A DNA stretch of 64,000 bases from NCBI GenBank assembly GCA_017432885.1, contig JAFRIE010000018.1, forward strand, positions 124,001 to 188,000, read 5' to 3'. This DNA comes from Erysipelotrichaceae bacterium. GTDB lineage: Bacteria > Bacillota_I > Bacilli_A > Erysipelotrichales > Erysipelotrichaceae. The notes beneath the pieces were generated by a model. That model searched no databases. It saw only the letters and a program-made list of their open reading frames with translations, and had not been told where the DNA came from. This document shows positions 1,948 through 13,742 of the stretch, piece after piece (position 1 is the stretch's first letter; every line of letters begins with the position of its first letter). The position numbers were made by a program, and so were the translations under genes.

Positions 1948-3930
1948 TTAGCTGATATAGTTTGAGGCAGCGATTTCCTCTATTTTTTCATAGTATCTGT
2001 GCAGCCTTGTATCATCCTGATTATCACAGACATAACGGGCATCCTCTCTTGCTGCATTGATGAATCTTGTATCTTCGATCAGATTGCCTAAAACAAATGT
2101 CGGTAAACCGCTTTGTCTTGTCCCAAGAATATCTCCGGGACCTCTTAGTTTAAGATCTTCGTAGGAAATCTTAAATCCGTCATTCGTCTCACACAGCACA
2201 TTCAGTCTCTTAAGAACGTTCTCATCTTTATTGTCTGTCAGAAGATAACAGCTTCCTTCAATACTGGATCTTTGTACTCTTCCTCTTAGCTGATGAAGTT
2301 GTGAAAGACCGAAACGGTCGGCATCGTATATGATCATCGTCGTGGCATTCGGTACATTGACGCCGACTTCCACGACAGTCGTCGAAATCAGGGCCTGTAT
2401 CTCGTTTCTGGAGAACTTTTCCATGATCTCGTCTTTCTCTTCACTGCTAAGCCTTCCATGCATCAGAGCTGTCTTATATGGCCTTAAAACGCTGTTTAAA
2501 GCCTGAAACAGGCCATTCACATCCTTTGCCTGATAATTCTCATTTCTTTCAATTGCTGCCGCAATAATATATACCTGTCTTCCGGAAGCGAGAACCGCTC
2601 TTATATCCTCCAGAATATCCACGATACTGTTTTTATGAATCAGAAAGGTTTTACATCCCTTTCTTCCGGATGGTATGGTGGCAATCGTGGAAATATCCAT
2701 GTCCCCATAGATGGAGGAAGCAAGTGTTCTGGGAATAGGCGTTGCCGACATCAGAATAAAGTCGCAGTTATCTCCCTTATCCTTTAAGGCTTGTCTCTGT
2801 TTTACGCCAAAACGGTGCTGCTCATCCGCGATTACCAGCCCCAGTTTCCGGTAGTTCACATCTTTTGAAAACAGAGCATGTGTTCCTACAATAATATCGA
2901 TATCGCCGTTTTCCAGCTGTTTCTTGACGATTTGTTCCTTATCCATCGATCCATACAGCAGGCCGATCCTAACGCCAAACGAAGAAAGACTTTTGTTTAA
3001 GGATTCGAAATGCTGCTTTGCCAGGATCTCGGTCGGAGCCATCAAAGCGCCCTGATATCCTGCAAGATAGTTCGCATACAGGCCGATCATCGCAACAGCC
3101 GTCTTTCCCGAACCGACTTCTCCCTGAACAAGACGGTACATTGTACTGGCTGAAGCCAGGTCATGCAGGATCTCATTCTTAGTCTGTATCTGATCTTTCG
3201 TCAGTTCATAAGGAAATGACTGAATCAACTGATTGATCTTATCTTCATCAAAACTCTTTTTTTCTTTCCTGTTTCTGGTTGTATCGTTTTTCAGGATATC
3301 CAAAGCGACATAGAACCTTAAAAACTCCTCATATTTCAGTCTGCTGAGCGACTTTGACAGAAGATCTTTGTTTTTTGGACTATGTATGTTTCGGATCGCC
3401 GTTTCATGATCGATCAGATGGTGCTTTTCTATCAGTTCTTCCGGTGTCAGATCTTCTTCGATCTTCCCTTTCTCCAATACGAACTGTATCAGTTTACGGA
3501 TATCATTCTGGGCAATCCCTTCTTTCAGTGAATAATACGGGATAATGCTTCCCAGAATATCTTTTGTATAGTAGTTGCCGGCAGTGATTTTGTTGTTTCC
3601 ATCGTATCTGCCGATGATCGTTATTTCCTCGTTCATTCCGATGTTGCGGATCCAGGGACGGTTAAAGATGGTAACGGAGAAAATCTCCTCTTCGTATAGG
3701 ACCTTGAAACGGGTAGTAGTCAGTTTTCCTTTTCGGAAAGTACTAGGAAAACTGACCAGTTCGCCCACAAAACAGATCTGGTTTCCGATCTTGAAGTCGT
3801 TCAATGCCGTTCTTTCGTACATTTCATAACGGAAGGGATAGTAACTCAAAACGTCTTCTACGGTATGCAGATTCAGTTTGTCGGCGATCTCTTTTCTTTT
3901 AGGAGTCAGTTTCAGTTCACTCAGATCCAT
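1948..3930 (-). CDS. recG: ATP-dependent DNA helicase RecG
   Basis: Branch-migrating helicase that remodels stalled forks and Holliday junctions; 660 residues, normal length. An N-terminal wedge/OB region is followed by the helicase core with Walker A GEVGSGKTAVA near residue 268, DEQHRFGVKQR (the RecG form of the DEAH motif) and the ATPIPRT motif. The C-terminal helicase half includes QLRGRVQRSS and the TRP-type motif LKLRGPGDILGTRQSG. The start lacks a clear ribosome binding site. AATAAT or TAAAAT at 3945..3937 on the minus strand could be the -10 box. The gene is divergent from tRNA-Leu. Confidence 0.96.
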   Translation of the reverse strand: MDLSELKLTPKRKEIADKLNLHTVEDVLSYYPFRYEMYERTALNDFKIGNQICFVGELVSFPSTFRKGKLTTTRFKVLYEEEIFSVTIFNRPWIRNIGMNEEITIIGRYDGNNKITAGNYYTKDILGSIIPYYSLKEGIAQNDIRKLIQFVLEKGKIEEDLTPEELIEKHHLIDHETAIRNIHSPKNKDLLSKSLSRLKYEEFLRFYVALDILKNDTTRNRKEKKSFDEDKINQLIQSFPYELTKDQIQTKNEILHDLASASTMYRLVQGEVGSGKTAVAMIGLYANYLAGYQGALMAPTEILAKQHFESLNKSLSSFGVRIGLLYGSMDKEQIVKKQLENGDIDIIVGTHALFSKDVNYRKLGLVIADEQHRFGVKQRQALKDKGDNCDFILMSATPIPRTLASSIYGDMDISTIATIPSGRKGCKTFLIHKNSIVDILEDIRAVLASGRQVYIIAAAIERNENYQAKDVNGLFQALNSVLRPYKTALMHGRLSSEEKDEIMEKFSRNEIQALISTTVVEVGVNVPNATTMIIYDADRFGLSQLHQLRGRVQRSSIEGSCYLLTDNKDENVLKRLNVLCETNDGFKISYEDLKLRGPGDILGTRQSGLPTFVLGNLIEDTRFINAAREDARYVCDNQDDTRLHRYYEKIEEIAASNYIS

Positions 3931-3942
3931 ATAAACATTATT

Positions 3943-3971
3943 TTATCAAATAGCCGGTTTTATGTTAAAAT
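3943..3971 (+). promoter_or_regulatory. promoter of tRNA-Leu
   Basis: TTATCA (3943-3948), a 17-base spacer and TAAAAT (3966-3971) lie just upstream of the tRNA. The predicted start is around 3978, a few bases before the mature 5' end. The site overlaps the divergent recG start region. Confidence 0.5.
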
Positions 3972-3981
3972 AAATAAGCAT

Positions 3982-4066
3982 CCCCGAATGGCGGAATTGG
4001 CAGACGCGCACGACTCAAAATCGTGAGGAGAAATCCGTGTCGGTTCGACCCCGACTTCGGGGACCA
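3982..4066 (+). tRNA. tRNA-Leu (anticodon CAA), CCA encoded
   Basis: An 85-nt class II tRNA. The acceptor stem CCCCGAA (3982-3988) pairs with TTCGGGG (4056-4062), followed by A and an encoded CCA. The D arm contains GGAATTGGCAGAC. The anticodon stem CACGA/TCGTG encloses the loop CTCAAAA, giving anticodon CAA, which reads UUG. A long variable arm (AGGAGAAATCCGT) is typical of leucine tRNAs, and the T arm carries GGTTCGACC. Its last eight bases, GGGGACCA, recur at 5845 and 6822, so this gene looks like an integration target. Confidence 0.96.
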
Positions 4067-4075
4067 GAGCATATG

Positions 4076-4104
4076 AAAAGTACGGCTGAGACCGTACTTT
4101 TTTG
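4076..4104 (+). terminator. intrinsic terminator of tRNA-Leu
   Basis: AAAAGTACGG (4076-4085), loop CTGAGA, then CCGTACTTTTTTT. The same stem with different loops (CTGATT, AATCAT) recurs at 5862 and 6839, each time downstream of a GGGGACCA copy. Confidence 0.85.
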
Positions 4105-4127
4105 TTTATCATTAGAATTTTTGATTT

Positions 4128-4211
4128 AAAATGTTATGCTTGACTGAATTTGCTCATGTTGATCAATCGGGAATTACACTTCCTGATTTGTCGAATATCA
4201 TAACATTTTTT
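4128..4211 (+). promoter_or_regulatory. long hairpin with T-run upstream of the lipoprotein gene
   Basis: AAAATGTTATG (4128-4138) pairs perfectly over 11 bp with CATAACATTTT (4199-4209) and is followed by further T residues. Inside, AATCGGGAA and TTCCTGATT form a second stem. It could be an attenuator of the downstream gene or the end of an earlier small RNA. The fold is directly visible; the function is unknown. Confidence 0.4.
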
Positions 4212-4253
4212 CCAATGATACAATTGAAATAGTATAAAGGGGGATTTTGAATA

Positions 4254-5294
4254 ATGAGAAGATCTATAATCATTTTGTTTTTATTCTCAATCATTATTTC
4301 GGGTTGTAGCGAAAAACCATTAGCAAGAATAATAGATGGACCGATTGAAATACATGTTAATGAAGAATTTAATCCATTTTCAGTATTCTATGACGTTCAA
4401 GATGGGGCTGATATTTCTTATGAAATAAACGAAAACGAAAGCCTCATTTCTTTTGTAGTGTGCAAAGATGATAGAGAAGAAAGATTCGATGACATTGAAG
4501 TCAAACTTATATATCCTGACCCTACGGAAACACCATATAAAGTTATGGCACTAAAGGATTTAGAAATACACGATGATCATAACACTAATGCTGGATTATA
4601 TGGATACGTTAGGAAGGATGATGTATTCGAAGTATATGAGACTTTTATAGATGGCAGCGACATTTGGTGTCGTATATCAACATTACACTGGATATGCAAT
4701 AAACAAACTTCATGTTTGAAGATTATTCCATATGATACAAATATAGAAATAATACATAATTCGATATCTTTTCCATATTTTGAGTTTGATCGGCAGGTTT
4801 TCTGGGATTTTCCTGGTTATTTTATTCTAACAAACGATCCTAAGAACAACGATGCGCTATTAAGCAAAGAGTACGATGAAAAAGGAAGATTAATCTCTGC
4901 TTATATGCATTCTCTAAGTCCTTTTTGGAAAGTTCAATACCACTATGATTCGACTGGAAGACTAGAACGTTTATCTAATGGTTATGTGGATTATATTTAC
5001 GACGATTGGGGAAGAGTAGCTAAAGAAGTATCAGGAGAAAAAAAAGACTCTTTTGTTTATCATGAATACGATATGTATAATAATCTGGTTAGAGTAATCA
5101 TTGATGGTGATTATCATTCTGAATACAAAAATGGCATCATAGTAGAATACGAATACAATGGTTCATTAAAACTAGAAATAATAGCAGAATATAATATATA
5201 CCATGTTTTCAGATATGATCTAGACGGAAATGAAGTAGAGATTTTTTACGCAAATGATAAAGATATTCGAAATCCTATAGAGCCACATGTTTAA
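4254..5294 (+). CDS. lipoprotein with YD-repeat-like C-terminal half, unknown function
   Basis: A 346-residue secreted lipoprotein. The N-terminus [18 protein letters not shown] has a hydrophobic core ending in a lipobox (ISGC), so it is probably anchored to the outer face of the membrane. Residues 25-90 look beta-rich and Ig-like. From about residue 210 there are degenerate YD/RHS-type units ([47 protein letters not shown]). The start follows a GGGGG ribosome binding site. The gene is visibly more AT-rich than its neighbours and sits inside the first tRNA-Leu cassette, so horizontal acquisition is likely. It is much shorter than true RHS toxins and has no recognisable toxin tip. Function unknown. 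Confidence 0.75.
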
Positions 5295-5440
5295 TTGCAA
5301 ACTCTTTTGTTGCCCTGCAGATCGAGATCCACAAGCAGTACCCTGTATCCCTCATCGGCCAGTCCCTTGGCCAGATTTATAGAAGTGGCAGTCTTTCCGG
5401 ATCCGCCCTTCTGGTTATTGCAGCTGATTATTTTTCCCAT
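5291..5440 (-). pseudogene. truncated ParA/Soj-type partition ATPase remnant
   Basis: A 49-residue reading frame starting at 5440 after the ribosome binding site GAAAGGTG. It begins [20 protein letters not shown], with the deviant Walker A motif of ParA (KGGxGKT), and ends soon after [10 protein letters not shown], where intact ParA proteins continue for some 200 more residues. The stop overlaps the end of the convergent lipoprotein gene. ParA genes belong to plasmids, conjugative elements and chromosomal partition loci. Here it is most likely a leftover of a mobile element that entered at the tRNA-Leu site. Confidence 0.75.
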
Positions 5441-5499
5441 GATTAAAACACCTTTCATTAATAAAACTACATCTCCATTTTCAAAATCTTGTTAATGAA

Positions 5500-5534
5500 A
5501 TCCACTACTGGATAGACAATATCCAATAGTGGAT
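5500..5534. repeat. inverted repeat upstream of the parA remnant
   Basis: The arms ATCCACTACTGGATA (5500-5514) and TATCCAATAGTGGAT (5520-5534) match with one mismatch around a 5-base spacer. The repeat lies about 60 bp upstream of the parA start on its coding side. It could be the operator or partition site of the lost element, or one end of the neighbouring structured repeat. It does not resemble the chromosomal parS consensus. Confidence 0.5.
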
Positions 5535-5553
5535 ATATATCAAAATGATTTGT

Positions 5554-5890
5554 TTTATACATGATCTTATGTGAATCGAAATCACATTCATCGGAGTCTC
5601 ACCGGCACAATATGGCTGTGCGCATTCCCTCGCAAGTATCATTATCACAGCTGCAGTATCTGGATACAGTCTTCGCAATATCTTCGTATTATTCGTCATG
5701 CGTACCTAATTGCTCTTGCATACAGACTTACAACTGATTAAGTATAATCATGTATTATGATCAAAAAACTGATATTTATCAAAGAACTTTTGTCTAAATA
5801 TCAGTGAGTACACGCTATAAAAGCGGTTCTTTTTTTGGGGTTCAGGGGACCAGGGTATATGAAAAGTACGGCTGATTCCGTACTTTTTTA
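5554..5890 (+). repeat. tRNA-Leu-associated structured repeat, copy A (putative ncRNA plus tRNA 3'-end duplicate)
   Basis: This unit of about 340 bp also occurs at 6512-6866. Conserved blocks include TTATACATGAT, a CATCGGA..TTTCACCGG-type block and CGCATTCCCTCGCAAGTATC. Small stems lie at 5570-5586 and 5605-5621. A perfect 10-bp stem (5769-5778 with 5795-5804) encloses AAAGAAC, which can pair with GTTCTTT at 5826-5832 directly before a run of seven T. That would form a pseudoknot or terminator in plus-strand RNA. Then follow GGGGACCA (5845-5852) and the tRNA-type terminator (5862-5890). No protein-coding content is credible. I do not recognise the family. Confidence 0.6.
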
Positions 5891-5935
5891 TTTATTTTGA
5901 CTCCATTCTTCTAATCGATAAATGGTTTTAATGTT

Positions 5936-6349
5936 TTATTTCCTGATAATCATTCTCATTCCGCTTCCGCTGGATTCATTCGGTACTGATTGGAAGCCAA
6001 ACTTTTTATAAAAAGTCTCTTTTCCTTTTTCCGCAATCAGTTGCACCGATACCCTTCCGTTCTCAGGCGTTTGGTTTTCCAGATATGCCAGCAAACGATT
6101 CATGATTTCTGTCCCGAGTCCCCTTCCTTGATAAGCCGGGTCAATAACAATATCGCAAATGGTATTGTAAATGCCATCTCCTACAATGCGGCCCATACCA
6201 ATTGGCTTCTCTACATCATACGCTACCAGAGAATATAGACTTCTTGACAACCCTTGTTTTATTTGTTCTGTACTGAAATTCATCCATTCAACACTCGAAC
6301 GAAGTTTGCGATAGATCTCTTCTGTTAATGCATTTTCCTTGAATTCCAT
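5936..6349 (-). CDS. GNAT family N-acetyltransferase
   Basis: A 137-residue single-domain acetyltransferase that would transfer acetyl from acetyl-CoA to an unidentified amine. The core motif A is PAYQGRGLGTEIMNRL (Q/RxxGxG type), followed by YKKFGFQSVP near the C-terminus. The start MEFKENALTEE at 6349 was chosen because AGGGAAG lies six bases upstream and homologous families begin there. A longer frame to 6439 exists, but its first codons fall inside a hairpin. This is the cargo of the second tRNA-Leu cassette, and it reads opposite to the structured repeats on either side. Confidence 0.85.
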   Translation of the reverse strand: MEFKENALTEEIYRKLRSSVEWMNFSTEQIKQGLSRSLYSLVAYDVEKPIGMGRIVGDGIYNTICDIVIDPAYQGRGLGTEIMNRLLAYLENQTPENGRVSVQLIAEKGKETFYKKFGFQSVPNESSGSGMRMIIRK

Positions 6350-6423
6350 AAAGTTCTTCCCTATGTTCAAAAACCGATTTGTCTTTCTGATTCCATTATA
6401 GATAATGTCGCTCATATTTGTTA

Positions 6424-6459
6424 GATATCCCGCCATCATTTTATAGATAGCGGGATACC
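6424..6459 (+). promoter_or_regulatory. inverted repeat, possible terminator between the GNAT gene and repeat copy B
   Basis: GATATCCCGC (6424-6433) and GCGGGATACC (6450-6459) pair at nine of ten positions, followed by TTTTATT on the plus strand. It lies upstream of the GNAT gene on that gene's own strand. It may shield the two cassette parts from each other or act as a leader hairpin. Confidence 0.35.
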
Positions 6460-6511
6460 TTTTATTGACATAAATCGTGTCAAAAACAATTCATTATTTT
6501 CCATATGTTAT

Positions 6512-6866
6512 TTATACATGATTACTGTGTAAGTCAGGAATTACACTCATCGGACTTTCACCGGTACAATCTGGCTGTACGCATTCCCTCGCAAGTATCA
6601 TTGTCACAGTACAGTATCTTCGTCATGTCATCGCAGCACTTTTGTGTTGATCGCATGCGCACGCAGCCGCTCGATGATAAAGACTTGTATCTGATTAAGT
6701 TAGTAATAATCATGTGTTATGATCAGTTAAAATCAACCTTCAGACCGATGTTTTTCAAAGAACTTTTATCGTCTAAAGGCTGATTGACTGCTATCAAAGC
6801 GGTTCTTTTTTTGAGGGGTCAGGGGACCATCGAATATGAAAAGTACGGAATCATCCGTACTTTTTT
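6512..6866 (+). repeat. tRNA-Leu-associated structured repeat, copy B (putative ncRNA plus tRNA 3'-end duplicate)
   Basis: Second copy of the unit at 5554-5890, with the same order of blocks. The stem GTGTAA/TTACAC (6527-6532 with 6541-6546) replaces the TGTGA/TCACA stem of copy A. GTACA/TGTAC (6564-6568 with 6576-6580) replaces GCACA/TGTGC. A stem of unrelated sequence (6737-6749 with 6768-6779) again presents AAAGAAC (6757-6763) to pair with GTTCTTT (6802-6808) before a T run. These paired changes favour selection on RNA structure. GGGGACCA (6822-6829) and the tRNA-type terminator (6839-6866) close the unit. No gene is visible in this stretch. Confidence 0.6.
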
Positions 6867-6891
6867 CTTGTCTGTCATGTCTGAGCTGCAC

Positions 6892-7053
6892 TTAATCGAT
6901 CCCTGTCTCCGGTATCTGATAAGAAGTGACCGGAATCCTGACAGGTTCCGCTCCAGGAGTCGGCGTCGGTGAAGATGCCTTCTTCACTGTCAAAGTCGTC
7001 TCGACTTTTCCGTCATCGAAATTGACAATATTGAAAATAACAGGACGATCGGT
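6892..7053 (-). pseudogene. fragment of a repeat-type surface protein
   Basis: A 53-codon open stretch without a start codon. It contains NFDDGKVETTLTVKKASSPT and a Pro/Thr linker, and ends in IPETGID. The first part closely matches YFDDGKAESYLTVKKPSSPT inside the large protein at 8886-13130, at both DNA and protein level. It is therefore a decayed or recombined piece of a paralogue. IPETG recalls an LPxTG-type sorting motif, but no hydrophobic segment follows before the stop. Confidence 0.55.
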
Positions 7054-8476: not shown

Positions 8477-8881
8477 CTAAAGGCATATATATCCTCTCCA
8501 TCCGCGTACCGAAAAATAAGAGTCGGCTCCGTTATGGAAAGTAAAGACTCTGCCATATCGCCGTTCACAGAACAACGCCCCTCCCTTGTCTCTTACATCC
8601 GCAGGCGTATCGATCCAGCTGGATGTTTTCAGATCAAATTCCCCGAGTTCCTGAAGCCTGTAATACATTTTCTCATCCATCAGCGAGACCCCCATCTCCT
8701 CCAGGCAGTCAAGCCATTCAAGCTTCGACGGGATAATAAAAAGGTTCTCGAAGTCTGTGCTGTATATGACATCGCTTATCCGAACCTTTCCGTTGATTGC
8801 TTCCACGATTCCGTCTATATTCTCGAAGTCCTCAAGGAACTTCGAACTGGTGTACTTTTTATAGTGAAGAAAAGAATACAT
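8477..8881 (-). CDS. DUF4256-like protein, C-terminal half joined to an unrelated N-terminus
   Basis: About 134 residues. From EEMGVSLMDEKMYYRLQ onward it matches the C-terminal half of the complete DUF4256 protein at 13221-13742, including LGEFDLKTSSWI, GGALFCERRYG, FHNGADSY and the ending VRGWRGYIC. The first 65 residues do not resemble that protein. The ATG at 8881 has no visible ribosome binding site; an upstream TTG at 8929 would overlap the preceding large gene by 44 bases. It may be a chimeric remnant of a duplication that flanks the DUF4838 gene. Function unknown. Confidence 0.55.
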   Translation of the reverse strand: MYSFLHYKKYTSSKFLEDFENIDGIVEAINGKVRISDVIYSTDFENLFIIPSKLEWLDCLEEMGVSLMDEKMYYRLQELGEFDLKTSSWIDTPADVRDKGGALFCERRYGRVFTFHNGADSYFSVRGWRGYICL

Positions 8882-8885
8882 ATTT

Positions 8886-11800
8886 TTATTGCCAAAGATT
8901 AAGCCACCACTGCAGAACTTTTGCTCCAATTGCGTAATTTACAGTCTTTGCCTTTCCCAGATCATTGACACCAATCAGTGTGACGGAGGCTTTACCCTTA
9001 TTGATATTGTTCTTGTAAGAAGAAGGATCGATTTCATAATTGGAAGGATCAATGACCTGCTTGTTGAGCTTGACGACAATGTCATCTTTGCTTAAAGTGA
9101 CAGGCTTGCCCGTATATTCTTTGGCTTGTACCGTAATGGAAGCTTTCGAGATGTCAGCTTCCGTAATCCGGTATTCACAAGACAGTTCATCGCAATAGTT
9201 CCTGATTCCCGTAACCGTTACCCTGATCCGCGTACCTGCAGGAATGATGTCATCAGGCTGCACAGCTTCCCCTTCCAGTCTTGTTAGAGATCCGTTGTTG
9301 ATAGAGGTTTCCGATACATAGGTATAGAGGATGCTGTTCTTGTCGTAATCCGTTCCTGCCGCAAGCTTCTTGCCGTAGTCCATTAGTACAGGAACAGATT
9401 TCCAGCCGTTCTTCTTCAAGGAATAAACCACATCAGGACTGTTCATGGCAATATTATCCTGAAGGGATCTTTGTACAACCTTGAAATGCTCTGCCTGTAA
9501 GACTCCCGTATAGTTTCCTTTGCCGCTTACAGTGAACGAAGGAAGCTTCTTAGGATCCGCCCCATCATTGAGCGAGGTGTTGTTTTTGAAGCTTACCGTA
9601 TAATCCGTTCCTTCCTTCAACATCTTCTCTTTATCGAAGACACAGATCACAGGTCTTCCTCCGGCTTTGGAATAAGGAGCGTCCTCATTGTGATATTCCA
9701 CAGATATCGAGTGATTCACATCTTTTCCGATATCATAAGGGACGATCTTGTAGGTTTTCTTAACTGTTCCGGTATACAGACCCTTTCCTGTTACTGCCAT
9801 AGTCGCCGTACCGGTCTCGATATTATTGACATATGTGACTTCATAATCCTTTTCAGGGTCAAGAGTCACAGCTTCAGAATTCTTCTCCTTCTGACAGGTG
9901 AGGATCATATCGTCCTGTGTCTTTTCGCTTCCGTCATAGACGAAAGAGGAGACCAGACTGTTGATCTTCACTCCGGACATCGGTATTCCTGTAATCTTGA
10001 AGGAAGTCGTTTTCGTACCGTAGAAGGACTGGATTCCTGCAATCGTCACAATGACAGCACCGATGTCGGTAGTATTCTCCGATAAGGAAAGCATATAATG
10101 AACGCCTTTGACCAGTGTTTCTTTTGTCTTTGGATCCTTTAAGACGACATCAAAACTGTTGAGGTCGACCGGTTCCCCCGTATACATGATGTCCTTAGGC
10201 TTGGCCAGGGTCATCTTGGAAATGTCTTTTACTTCCTCATCCTTGATGTCAAAGAAACAGTTCATTTCTCCCTGGAAGTTTCCAACGCCTTTGATCATGA
10301 AGCCGTAAGAACCCGGTTCCTGATAGGCTCCTTCGAAGTCCTCATTGTATTCAAGAATGTAGTCTTTACCCTGCTTCAGGGTCTTTCCGTTGAACTTGAG
10401 TACAGGCTTGGCATACTGAAGTTTTCCATTGTACCTCAGCTTAGGAATATCCAGTGTAACATCCGGATCTCCCAGAGGCTTGGCAAGAATACTGAATGAG
10501 ATCGTTTCCTTGGACCGATAGTTGTTCTTGCCGGTAACGGTAATGACAGCCTTTGAAGTATCCGTTGATACCTTCGTATTGTTGGAATACTTGACGGTAT
10601 AGTCCTTGCCTTCTTTCAGCAGTGTCTTGTGATCGTATACTCTGAACGACTTGGTGATGGCTTTCCCGGTGTAATACTCATCCGTTAAAGCGGATAAGGA
10701 ATACCAGAGACCGTCAGGTATATCGTCAGGGTTCGCAGGACAATCTTCAGGGAGGATTTCGCCATAAAGGGAGTCGTCCGCGGCCGGTGTCGGCGAAGAC
10801 GGCTTTTTTACTGTCAGGTACGACTCGGCTTTTCCGTCATCGAAATAAACGGTGACAGTATGTGTTCCTTCCAAGAGTCTGTTCAACAAAGTCGCTTTAA
10901 TCGTAACGACTGTACTACCCTTTACAACAGTATAATCTGTATCTAACGTTAATGTTTCTTCATCCAGATCGACACTCTTGAAATGTTCAAAACAATGACC
11001 ATCATCTACATTTCGCTTAACAGTCAGTACATAATCCTTGCCACTGTCTAAAGTATATGTTCCGTCTGCACCAGCCGTGACAGTGTATACAGGCCAGCTG
11101 GTTTGCCAGACGGCATAAAGCGTAATATTGGTATCTGCACTGAAACGATCTCCAGCCCGGTATTCCGGTTCAGTAGCCTCCGGGTCGCTTGACCAGCCCA
11201 GAAACTTTACATCACCGCATGTCGGTATAACGTCAGAAATCCATGCTTCATCTTTAAACCACTGGTCCTCAGGACCATTTGAGCCGCCATTTAGATTATA
11301 GTGTAGATAATCGTAATAAGCGGCATACTCCCATTCTTCGACAGGAACGAATTCGTATTCCGAGAAGTCCTCTTCAATCCAGGTCCATTCATCAATCATC
11401 TTTACGCCATGGGCGATCAAATTGTTGTATAATGTTTCTATTTCGTTTCTGTTCTCTTCAGGTGTTCCACTGAATTCTCTTAGCCCCAATACTGCTTTAA
11501 CATAACGCCAGGAAAGTTTACTGCGTCCGATGGCTTCAAGAGCATCCGGATCATCCGCAGCAGCATTTTCAGCTAAAGTCCAAAGCCGATCGATCTTCTC
11601 CGCTTCTTCCTCATCAATCGAGAAAGAATCGCCCATGCGACAAATCAGGTTCACGTGGTCTTTCACGCAGTCTGTGATCTCATCGATGATTTCCTTTACG
11701 TATGCTCCACCTTTGCCATAATAGTAGTTGCAAAATTCCAGCATCTTCTCTTCGTACTTGCAGTAAGGATCCTCCATCAGCTCTGCGATCAGGAAAGTTC

Positions 11801-13130
11801 TGAGTTCACCAAATTCCGTATCACAACGGTCGACGTAATAGTTTCCCTCTGCGTAAACCCCTTTAACTCCAAATTCGAAGAAGCACTGCATATTTTTCTG
11901 CAAAGTATGGAAATCAGGAAAGATTCCGAGTGTATAGGCATAATTGGTCGTATAGTCCCAGATATATATCCTGTTGCAGATTTCGGACCATTCCTCAAGA
12001 TCCTCTATCAGTTCTCTGTTTTGTTGACAGTTTGGATCATCCAAAGAATGGGAAAAACAGCATTCGAATGTACATAATCTAACGATAACATTATCTTCGG
12101 GCTTTACTTGAGCCGGAGCTTTGCGAGTGTACGTATAGGCAAGCGTATCAAAGGCAACATTGTCGTATTTATCGTCTGTTTCTTTTACGGCGTGGGCAAT
12201 TCTATTGACGAATGTGATCAAAGAGCCGGCATGTGATCCGTTTGTCTCGTCTAATGCCTCGCACTGTTCACATTCGCAATAATCCAGATTGTCGGCCTGA
12301 GACAGTGAAATGATCTGAAGATCTGCAGTCGGATCATGCTCTGTCTCAAGAATCTCTAATACTTCATCAAGGACAATTTCATAAACCTCGTCATTGGTCA
12401 GACAAAGCTGTCCGGGAACTCTTACACCGTCATGCAACGCAAAGTATTCCGGATGGCTTTCAAAATAGTCATTAGAAGAGCAGAAAACCGTTGAAAGTGT
12501 ATGACAACGGGTATCACCAAGATATGGGATGTTTCCTCCCTGCTCAGGGGTATAGTACTGCAGTTCTCCATTCAGTTTATGAGCATGTGAATACAAAGGC
12601 ATCCAGCCGCTGCGCCAGTCGGTATTTCGGTATTCGAAATATGGTTTGTATATGATTTTTTCTTCCGGAACTGCCATTTTATCGGAAGTCTTCACCATTG
12701 CCGGATACCAGGCATAGCATTTATAACCGCAGAAATCTTCAAGAAAAGTATGAACGCCATAGAGAGTTCCCCTACCGCCGGAACCATAAATGGCCAGACC
12801 ATTATTGAAAGGTGCGATAACATACGAATCAGCAGGCATACCCGCAATATCGGACGTATCATAAACAGAGGTTGTTCCAATGCAGAACTTGAATCCATCA
12901 AATGGCTGATCGTCTTTGATGATAGGATATTCGTTTCCATCAAGATAATACAGGTATTCTTGTAGAGTCTCTGCGGCATAGATTTCCCGATTTGAAGCAT
13001 AAGTAGAAATAATGATCGCATATTCTTCTTCATCGGCTTCTACTTCTCTATCTACACAAGACAGAATACCTGCTACGGCAATGATCATAAGCAATACAGC
13101 TATTATTGCCTTTTTGATTCCTTTCTTCAT
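8886..13130 (-). CDS. very large lipoprotein: DUF4838 domain, InlB-type repeat and seven Ig-like repeats
   Basis: 1,414 residues, exported. The signal ends in the lipobox GILSC with Cys25. Residues 35-600 are a DUF4838 region (the GH67/GH20-like fold of glycan-degrading enzymes), with a Cys-rich CECEQCEALD segment and a QADN motif. One InlB B-repeat (GDRFSADTNITLYAVW) lies near 640-680, then an X2-like domain near 690-790 and a Pro linker. Seven repeats of about 90 residues follow, of the type YTG...LKEGKDYTVKY..NN...VTGKGNYTG (MBG-like). The start follows GAGGAG. The last residues (VLQWWLNLWQ) do not look like a natural repeat end and may be a read-through at a recombination junction. Probably a cell-surface enzyme or adhesin for host or dietary glycans; substrate unknown. 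Confidence 0.8.
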   Translation of the reverse strand: MKKGIKKAIIAVLLMIIAVAGILSCVDREVEADEEEYAIIISTYASNREIYAAETLQEYLYYLDGNEYPIIKDDQPFDGFKFCIGTTSVYDTSDIAGMPADSYVIAPFNNGLAIYGSGGRGTLYGVHTFLEDFCGYKCYAWYPAMVKTSDKMAVPEEKIIYKPYFEYRNTDWRSGWMPLYSHAHKLNGELQYYTPEQGGNIPYLGDTRCHTLSTVFCSSNDYFESHPEYFALHDGVRVPGQLCLTNDEVYEIVLDEVLEILETEHDPTADLQIISLSQADNLDYCECEQCEALDETNGSHAGSLITFVNRIAHAVKETDDKYDNVAFDTLAYTYTRKAPAQVKPEDNVIVRLCTFECCFSHSLDDPNCQQNRELIEDLEEWSEICNRIYIWDYTTNYAYTLGIFPDFHTLQKNMQCFFEFGVKGVYAEGNYYVDRCDTEFGELRTFLIAELMEDPYCKYEEKMLEFCNYYYGKGGAYVKEIIDEITDCVKDHVNLICRMGDSFSIDEEEAEKIDRLWTLAENAAADDPDALEAIGRSKLSWRYVKAVLGLREFSGTPEENRNEIETLYNNLIAHGVKMIDEWTWIEEDFSEYEFVPVEEWEYAAYYDYLHYNLNGGSNGPEDQWFKDEAWISDVIPTCGDVKFLGWSSDPEATEPEYRAGDRFSADTNITLYAVWQTSWPVYTVTAGADGTYTLDSGKDYVLTVKRNVDDGHCFEHFKSVDLDEETLTLDTDYTVVKGSTVVTIKATLLNRLLEGTHTVTVYFDDGKAESYLTVKKPSSPTPAADDSLYGEILPEDCPANPDDIPDGLWYSLSALTDEYYTGKAITKSFRVYDHKTLLKEGKDYTVKYSNNTKVSTDTSKAVITVTGKNNYRSKETISFSILAKPLGDPDVTLDIPKLRYNGKLQYAKPVLKFNGKTLKQGKDYILEYNEDFEGAYQEPGSYGFMIKGVGNFQGEMNCFFDIKDEEVKDISKMTLAKPKDIMYTGEPVDLNSFDVVLKDPKTKETLVKGVHYMLSLSENTTDIGAVIVTIAGIQSFYGTKTTSFKITGIPMSGVKINSLVSSFVYDGSEKTQDDMILTCQKEKNSEAVTLDPEKDYEVTYVNNIETGTATMAVTGKGLYTGTVKKTYKIVPYDIGKDVNHSISVEYHNEDAPYSKAGGRPVICVFDKEKMLKEGTDYTVSFKNNTSLNDGADPKKLPSFTVSGKGNYTGVLQAEHFKVVQRSLQDNIAMNSPDVVYSLKKNGWKSVPVLMDYGKKLAAGTDYDKNSILYTYVSETSINNGSLTRLEGEAVQPDDIIPAGTRIRVTVTGIRNYCDELSCEYRITEADISKASITVQAKEYTGKPVTLSKDDIVVKLNKQVIDPSNYEIDPSSYKNNINKGKASVTLIGVNDLGKAKTVNYAIGAKVLQWWLNLWQ

Positions 13131-13220: not shown

Positions 13221-13742
13221 TCAAAAACAGATATAGCCTCTCCAGCCACGGACAGAATAATATGAATCGGCACCATTATGAAAAACAAAGACGGTCCCAT
13301 AACGACGTTCGCAGAACAGCGCACCGCCTTTTTCTCTGATACTGTCCGGTGTCTTGATCCAGCTGGAAGTCTTCAGATCGAAATTGCCCAGTTCCTGCAG
13401 CCTGCGGTAAAGCGGCTCATCCATCATTTCGATGCCCATTTCCTGTGCTTGAGCCATGGCACTTCCTGCAGGAGGATTCTTGCTGCGTTTCCGTAAAGCT
13501 TCCTCATCATAACAGAAACTTCTTCGTCCGGAGGGTGTTTCTGCGCTACAGTCACAGAAGATCAGCTTTCCGGAAGCTGTTTCCTTACCAATAACATCCG
13601 GTTCTCCCCCACTCTCTTCCATACGCTTCAGAATCTCCAACATTTCCGGATGATCTGTTAAACGTTTTTCAACCTCTTCCCATTCCAGATCCAGATGGCG
13701 TTCCCTATTCTCACAAAATCTTTTCTTCAGTGTTTCAATCAT
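13221..13742 (-). CDS. DUF4256 domain-containing protein
   Basis: 173 residues, a full-length member of this small cytosolic family of unknown function. Recognisable family blocks are GGEPDVIG, FCDCSAETPSGRRSFCYD, MGIEMMDEPLYRRLQELGNF, TSSWIKTP and GGALFCERRYGTVFVFHNGA. The start MIETLKKRF at 13742 was preferred because GGGAG lies seven bases upstream; an in-frame ATG at 13781 overlaps the preceding gene. It follows a GNAT gene in the same direction. Its C-terminal half is duplicated at 8477-8881, on the other side of the DUF4838 gene. Confidence 0.8.
   Translation of the reverse strand: MIETLKKRFCENRERHLDLEWEEVEKRLTDHPEMLEILKRMEESGGEPDVIGKETASGKLIFCDCSAETPSGRRSFCYDEEALRKRSKNPPAGSAMAQAQEMGIEMMDEPLYRRLQELGNFDLKTSSWIKTPDSIREKGGALFCERRYGTVFVFHNGADSYYSVRGWRGYICF

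Follow-up and report, generated by a model that had tools for sequence, protein, structure and literature searches.

Two diverged minus-strand RNAs of the pemK/canT class, probable processive antiterminators, in small cassettes behind a tRNA-Leu gene

The 64,000-nt stretch of Erysipelotrichaceae DNA analyzed here (the window) carries two diverged copies of one RNA element, around 5.55–5.81 kb (copy A) and 6.51–6.79 kb (copy B), which share a 71-nt core with 89% identity and further matching blocks in the repeat comparison. The element is a conserved structured RNA and no protein gene, and it is linked to small mobile cassettes. The two copies are diverged canT/pemK RNAs and, by analogy, probably processive antiterminators. 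The explanation that we hold with considerable confidence is that each copy belongs to the pemK-RNA/canT class and is a leader RNA on the minus strand that makes RNA polymerase pass terminators. The original prediction for this locus had described two diverged copies, compensatory changes, a third hairpin with a variable stem and a constant loop, and, in place of a protein gene, a structured RNA connected with small mobile cassettes, all of which are borne out below; it had also placed the RNA on the plus strand, with a loop-to-tail pairing and a terminator of its own, and these parts did not stand. The parts of the two RNAs are the following.

5559–5753, minus strand: copy A, structured domain closed by the P1 helix ACATGAT/ATCATGT (14-copy same-genus alignment, covariation counts, and fold z)
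5588–5645, minus strand: copy A, pemK RNA motif RF02913 (cmscan, 36.2 bits, gathering threshold 34.8)
5768–5805, minus strand: copy A, hairpin with a boxA-like loop, core GTTCTTTGA at 5787–5779 (sequence, alignment, and boxA statistics)
6517–6715, minus strand: copy B, P1-closed structured domain (alignment and covariation counts)
6547–6604, minus strand: copy B, pemK RNA motif (cmscan, 33.8 bits, E 0.0012, just under the gathering threshold)
6730–6786, minus strand: copy B, hairpin with a boxA-like loop, core GTTCTTTGA at 6763–6755 (sequence and alignment)

The Rfam scan places a known element, the pemK RNA motif RF02913, on the strand opposite to the one predicted, and both copies cover the whole 61-position model there. 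The original prediction had itself named such a match as an outcome that would refute it. Copy A passes the gathering threshold of 34.8 bits, and copy B, about 1 bit short of it, is nevertheless homologous to copy A. Apart from tRNA or part of it, no other Rfam family was found in the window copies up to an E-value of 5, and no riboswitch model.

The consensus fold comes from 14 same-genus copies aligned in the minus orientation and is composed of the closing helix, a long arm, the pemK helices, and a last hairpin. Its 52 pairs are 96.8% standard, and 15 of the 52 are changed on both sides, with two-sided changes in helices 2, 3, 4, 7, and 9 on the minus strand and most of the compensatory changes in the long arm. 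Counted by alignment cell, the two-sided changes number 53 versus 17.1 in shuffles, none of 500 shuffles reaching 53, and the covariation signal collapses when partners are slid by one to three columns. Because the single-sequence folds of the minus strand beat shuffled sequences only moderately at most (z of −2.3 for copy A, 5554–5806, and −0.8 for copy B), the case for an RNA rests on covariation and not on stability. The RNAalifold consensus energy is −74.6 for the minus strand versus −60.6 for the plus strand. The minus-derived fold holds 86 G-U and 8 A-C cells, and in the plus-derived fold 21 cells are G-U on the plus strand; these counts are biased toward the strand used to derive the fold in question but are concordant with Rfam and the gene direction. 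RF02913, the consensus fold, the G-U pairs, and the direction of the genes agree in favoring an RNA that runs on the minus strand.

In the same-genus copies, the P1 domain is preceded, upstream on the minus strand, by a hairpin whose stem varies and whose loop is constantly GTTCTTTGA. BoxA is the antitermination signal of rRNA operons, and this loop is what we take to be the core of the Gram-positive boxA, going by the E. coli and B. subtilis forms. The constant loop is best read as a minus-strand boxA. When 84,980 genomes were scanned with a pattern for the pemK motif, at least 119 stretches were returned, the named records among the matches listed being Bacillota, and viral contigs added 36 further stretches. 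From the matches listed, 133 unique Bacillota loci had sufficient upstream sequence to be counted, and 116 of these carry a 19-nt boxA-like site (consensus TTG[TA][AT]C[CT]TTGACAACTGAATA, up to five mismatches to GTTCTTTGACAACTGAATA being allowed) at a median distance of 188 nt upstream of the motif, with 2, 3, and 1 such sites in the antisense, downstream, and far-upstream control stretches, respectively. Two further elements, GCNATGA and GAGCGA, stand between the boxA and the motif in 81/116 and 89/116 loci in the sense direction and in none in antisense. When 40 whole genomes were searched for GNNCNTTGANAACTGAATA, the matches with readable context fell just before 16S rRNA, in the 16S–23S spacer, or in pemK-type leaders, the last standing 150–230 nt ahead of a pemK-like motif; the remainder are one leader that lacks the motif (L261) and a few matches at contig ends. 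Two genomes (G041 and G046) each have boxA copies with no detected pemK motif. In the L261 leader (1500–1520; G001:C1:65175), which belongs to an XRE-type repressor gene, a TATAAT-like box precedes a perfect boxA, GTTCTTTGAAAACTGAATA; no pemK motif was detected in this leader, and it is perhaps another boxA-bearing mobile-element leader.

A promoter reading of the 19-nt box, with TTGACA as the −35 element, was rejected, as no −10 element follows at +23 to +30 and there is no excess of sigma-70 signals upstream. Sigma-70 promoters are not enriched upstream of boxA and no promoter was found there. Literature searches on boxA with ICEs and the pemK motif found no relevant publication, and the matches for boxA with Tn916 are, judging by their titles, apparently papers on antibiotic resistance.

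The two RNAs stand at the ends of the following cassettes.

3982–4066, plus strand: tRNA-Leu (CAA), the integration target (ARAGORN)
4044–4106: repeat copy 1, tRNA-Leu 3′ end plus terminator, the attachment site (repeat family D2; empty site in L280)
4107–5892: cassette 1, with copy A, a parA stub, and an RHS-like lipoprotein gene on the plus strand (missing from the L280 empty site)
5291–5458, minus strand: parA stub of 55 aa, downstream of copy A (Pfam AAA_31, 9e-17, 45/177 positions)
5830–5892: repeat copy 2, end of cassette 1 (repeat family; att-like site at 5845)
5893–6869: cassette 2, with copy B and a GNAT gene (missing from the L280 empty site)
5936–6439, minus strand: GNAT acetyltransferase, first gene downstream of copy B (Pfam Acetyltransf_10, 2e-17)
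6807–6869: repeat copy 3, end of cassette 2 (repeat family; att-like site at 6822)

The three direct repeats and the empty site of a relative indicate that these are elements integrated at the 3′ end of the tRNA gene. In the empty site (L280), the equivalent of window positions 3902–4106 is joined straight to that of 6870 onward, the latter matching at 95.7% identity. Comparison of open reading frames with Pfam recognized no integrase gene in either cassette of the window. The sequence that follows cassette 2 resembles the remnant of a gene related to that of a 1414-aa protein encoded at 8886–13130, and a 62-nt repeat, 81% identical, is shared between 6961–7022 and 10785–10846. The 1414-aa gene is flanked by a 222-nt repeat (8479–8700 and 13223–13444, 73% identical) that encodes a pair of related small proteins (KTSSWI...GGALFCERRYG...GADSY-SVRGWRGYIC).

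The RNA of same-genus relatives is located 170–250 nt ahead of parA-parB-rep operons, on the operon strand, and its neighbors are tmRNA, tRNA-Gly, or tRNA-Thr. A third copy in the genome of the window (G000:C1:82405–82463; L001, L031) lies beside tmRNA, before a complete parA and parB, and the parA region of L031 matches the stub next to copy A at 95.6% identity. In an intact element (G006), about 20 kb of mostly codirectional genes extend from the RNA to a large serine recombinase; a short-word search did not find the direct-repeat end of this element. Cassettes of the kind seen in the window occupy the same tRNA-Leu in three other genomes (G003, G018, and G032) and differ in what they carry: a PTS operon, a beta-lactamase-family protein with a GNAT protein, an AlbA_2 protein with a DUF4379 protein, and a NUP-family protein. 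In one such locus (L052, 6650–8365 and 5565–6614), the cargo includes a protein in which the DUF4379 zinc finger is repeated six times, and an AlbA_2 protein that weakly matches PDC-S19, a PADLOC candidate defense family. No integrase was found among the cassette genes examined in the window and the relatives. The tRNA-Leu array of G003 (G003:C44 2395–21828; L343, L050) is headed by a phage-like element with a tyrosine integrase, followed by an RNA with the PTS operon and then by an RNA with the beta-lactamase-family and GNAT genes; since this phage-like element has an integrase at the same tRNA-Leu, movement of the cassettes in trans is possible. A leader peptide starting at the motif AUG behind GGUGA was considered and rejected, the frames having a median length of only 13 aa and barely exceeding those of frame +2.

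The functional reading draws on canT of Tn916, a cis-acting, orientation-specific, processive antiterminator located between orf8 and xis that is most likely an RNA (Wirachman and Grossman, PMC11658703). It serves the transfer genes after circularization and acts processively on foreign terminators; canT mutants excise normally, no interpretable structure was reported, and boxA, NusB, and Rfam are absent from the text (PMC11658703). It is inactivated by a 162-bp deletion from +229 to +390 and by a 3-base change at +283, a 400-nt fragment is active even with the 3-base change, and an active 452-nt fragment starts at +126 (PMC11658703). In the Tn916-family element on pCF10 (L342), we found, counting from the stop codon of orf8, the pemK RNA at +283 to +383 (55.0 bits, E 6e-9) and a perfect boxA, GTTCTTTGAAAACTGAATA, at +121 to +139. 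The three bases at +283 are ATA in this copy, in agreement with the publication, and they are those with which the pemK model begins; copy A has AUAAUGAUAC as this conserved start, and copy B has ACAAUGAUAC. Mapped on the pCF10 copy, the published deletion takes out the entire motif. Because one inactivating mutation alters it and the other removes it, the pemK motif is required in canT, in the intact element and in the 452-nt reporter. The 452-nt fragment has its first base at position 6 of the 19-nt boxA and lacks the five preceding bases, GTTCT; a strict need for the boxA 5′ end is therefore not supported, and at least this five-base part may be dispensable in the canT reporter.

By analogy with canT, we propose that the two window copies act as follows. 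The transcript would enter each cassette from its att end and expose the boxA in the hairpin loop first, and NusB–S10 would bind it as in rRNA operons. Folding of the P1 domain, long arm and pemK motif included, would come next, and the boxA and the folded domain would convert RNA polymerase into a terminator-passing form. The genes beyond would then be transcribed, namely the GNAT gene here and a parA-parB-rep-conjugation-recombinase operon of roughly 20 kb in full relatives. Each insertion into the array duplicates the tRNA-Leu terminator, of which copies lie at about 4077–4102 and 5862–5886, and a polymerase modified at copy B or copy A could read past these duplicates. No promoter was found, and the distance from the att core to the boxA is only about 60 nt, so the transcript may come in over the junction of an excised circle; such an entry would, speculatively, couple expression to excision as in Tn916. 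Of the three roles first suggested for the RNA, to guide, to regulate, or to be required for cassette movement, regulation is the best supported, and none of the analyses shows guiding or a requirement for movement. Counted against the antiterminator explanation are the activity of the 452-nt canT fragment with its truncated boxA and of the 400-nt fragment with the 3-base change, the score of copy B below the gathering threshold, the missing boxA tail in the window copies, the lack of sigma-70 enrichment upstream of boxA, the terminator-like hairpins that are no commoner between motif and gene than in controls, and the small size of a 1-kb cassette, for which the need for antitermination is hardly obvious.

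Inactive relics are an unlikely alternative: the RNAs would be remnants of the ends of larger conjugative elements, retained only through their adjacency to the att site. The 55-aa parA stub that is all cassette 1 has beside copy A, the unrelated cargo across cassettes, and the degenerate state of some copies (L323) would fit such an origin, but two-sided changes maintain the helices, those of cassette copies included, and the boxA core is intact in both window copies while the stems around it have diverged. It is quite improbable that the RNA is an attenuator that senses a ligand or a protein from the 5′ leader of a single gene, pemK for example, the role implied by the Rfam label Cis-reg. 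The first genes, which lie 150–350 nt behind the RNA and include PemK toxins, are diverse (serine recombinases, Xis-Int, ParA, PemK) and thus share no common metabolic theme. A strong terminator-like hairpin follows the motif in some loci, as an attenuator would have it, but between motif and gene such hairpins show no enrichment over controls (28/130 sense, 41 antisense), so that a general terminator at this place was rejected, and the Tn916 member acts processively on foreign terminators (PMC11658703). A site acting as DNA in recombination or transfer, be it a folded single strand or integrase arm sites, would account for the position of the copies next to attachment sites and for the abundance of inverted sequences; we give it very little weight, as the excess of G-U over A-C cells in the minus structure fits RNA, the motif lies inside the element, upstream of the recombinase gene, in many ICEs, and canT mutants excise normally (PMC11658703). 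Virtually no credence is left for the plus-strand pseudoknotted RNA with its own terminator, for which AAAGAAC and GTTCTTT are complementary in both window copies, since the pairing (AAAGAAC in the minus sense) occurs in 6/13 copies and is absent or broken in the rest, its tail and the T run fall in the att duplication of the tRNA-Leu 3′ end and not in conserved RNA, the nearby hairpin terminator copies the one behind tRNA-Leu, the plus consensus folds worse, and Rfam and the gene context point to the minus strand.

The antiterminator reading joins an Rfam motif labeled as cis-regulatory and named after a toxin gene to the experimentally proven antiterminator of Tn916, two things apparently unconnected before; neither the link between canT and pemK RNA nor the boxA of Tn916 was found in the searchable literature. 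To canT, whose structure its authors could not interpret, our alignment offers a covariation-supported fold and a minimal motif, together with candidate host partners, the boxA-binding Nus factors. The activation of long operons in conjugative elements of gut and pathogenic Bacillota thereby becomes directly testable, and the cassettes suggest that antiterminators can travel with cargo genes. A wider proposal, on which our confidence is evenly divided, is that pemK RNA is the essential core of Bacillota-wide antiterminators of conjugative elements that borrow the boxA machinery of host rRNA operons, and that in this genus it also heads integrase-less cassettes stacked behind tRNA-Leu, where polymerase would read through the host terminators duplicated by insertion.

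Set against known systems, the window copies share with the pemK RNA of RF02913 the conserved AUAAUGAUACUU (ACAAUGAUACUU in copy B) and GGUGARA-UCC-AUGA; they score at the edge of that family (36.2 and 33.8 bits), and whereas its model comprises 61 nt alone, the conserved RNA here extends over about 200–250 nt with P1, the long arm, and the boxA hairpin. With canT they share the pemK motif, which lies in its essential part, the upstream boxA, the location at an element end, and the strand of the genes served. They differ from it in being far diverged in overall sequence and in their position: canT lies between orf8 and xis, whereas the window copies adjoin the att site of small cassettes without conjugation genes. 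The boxA of rRNA operons, which acts with NusB–S10 and partners, recurs as an identical 19-nt sequence in the rRNA leaders or spacers of relatives and in related ICE leaders; unlike it, the window copies keep the 5′ core GTTCTTTGA without the ACTGAATA tail. The put RNA of phage HK022, EAR of the B. subtilis eps operon, and conAn of pLS20 also head long operons and achieve processive antitermination by or with an RNA (PMC11658703, PMC8955417, the latter not mentioning boxA). The likeness to these three is one of description and not of sequence, and conAn also needs a protein.
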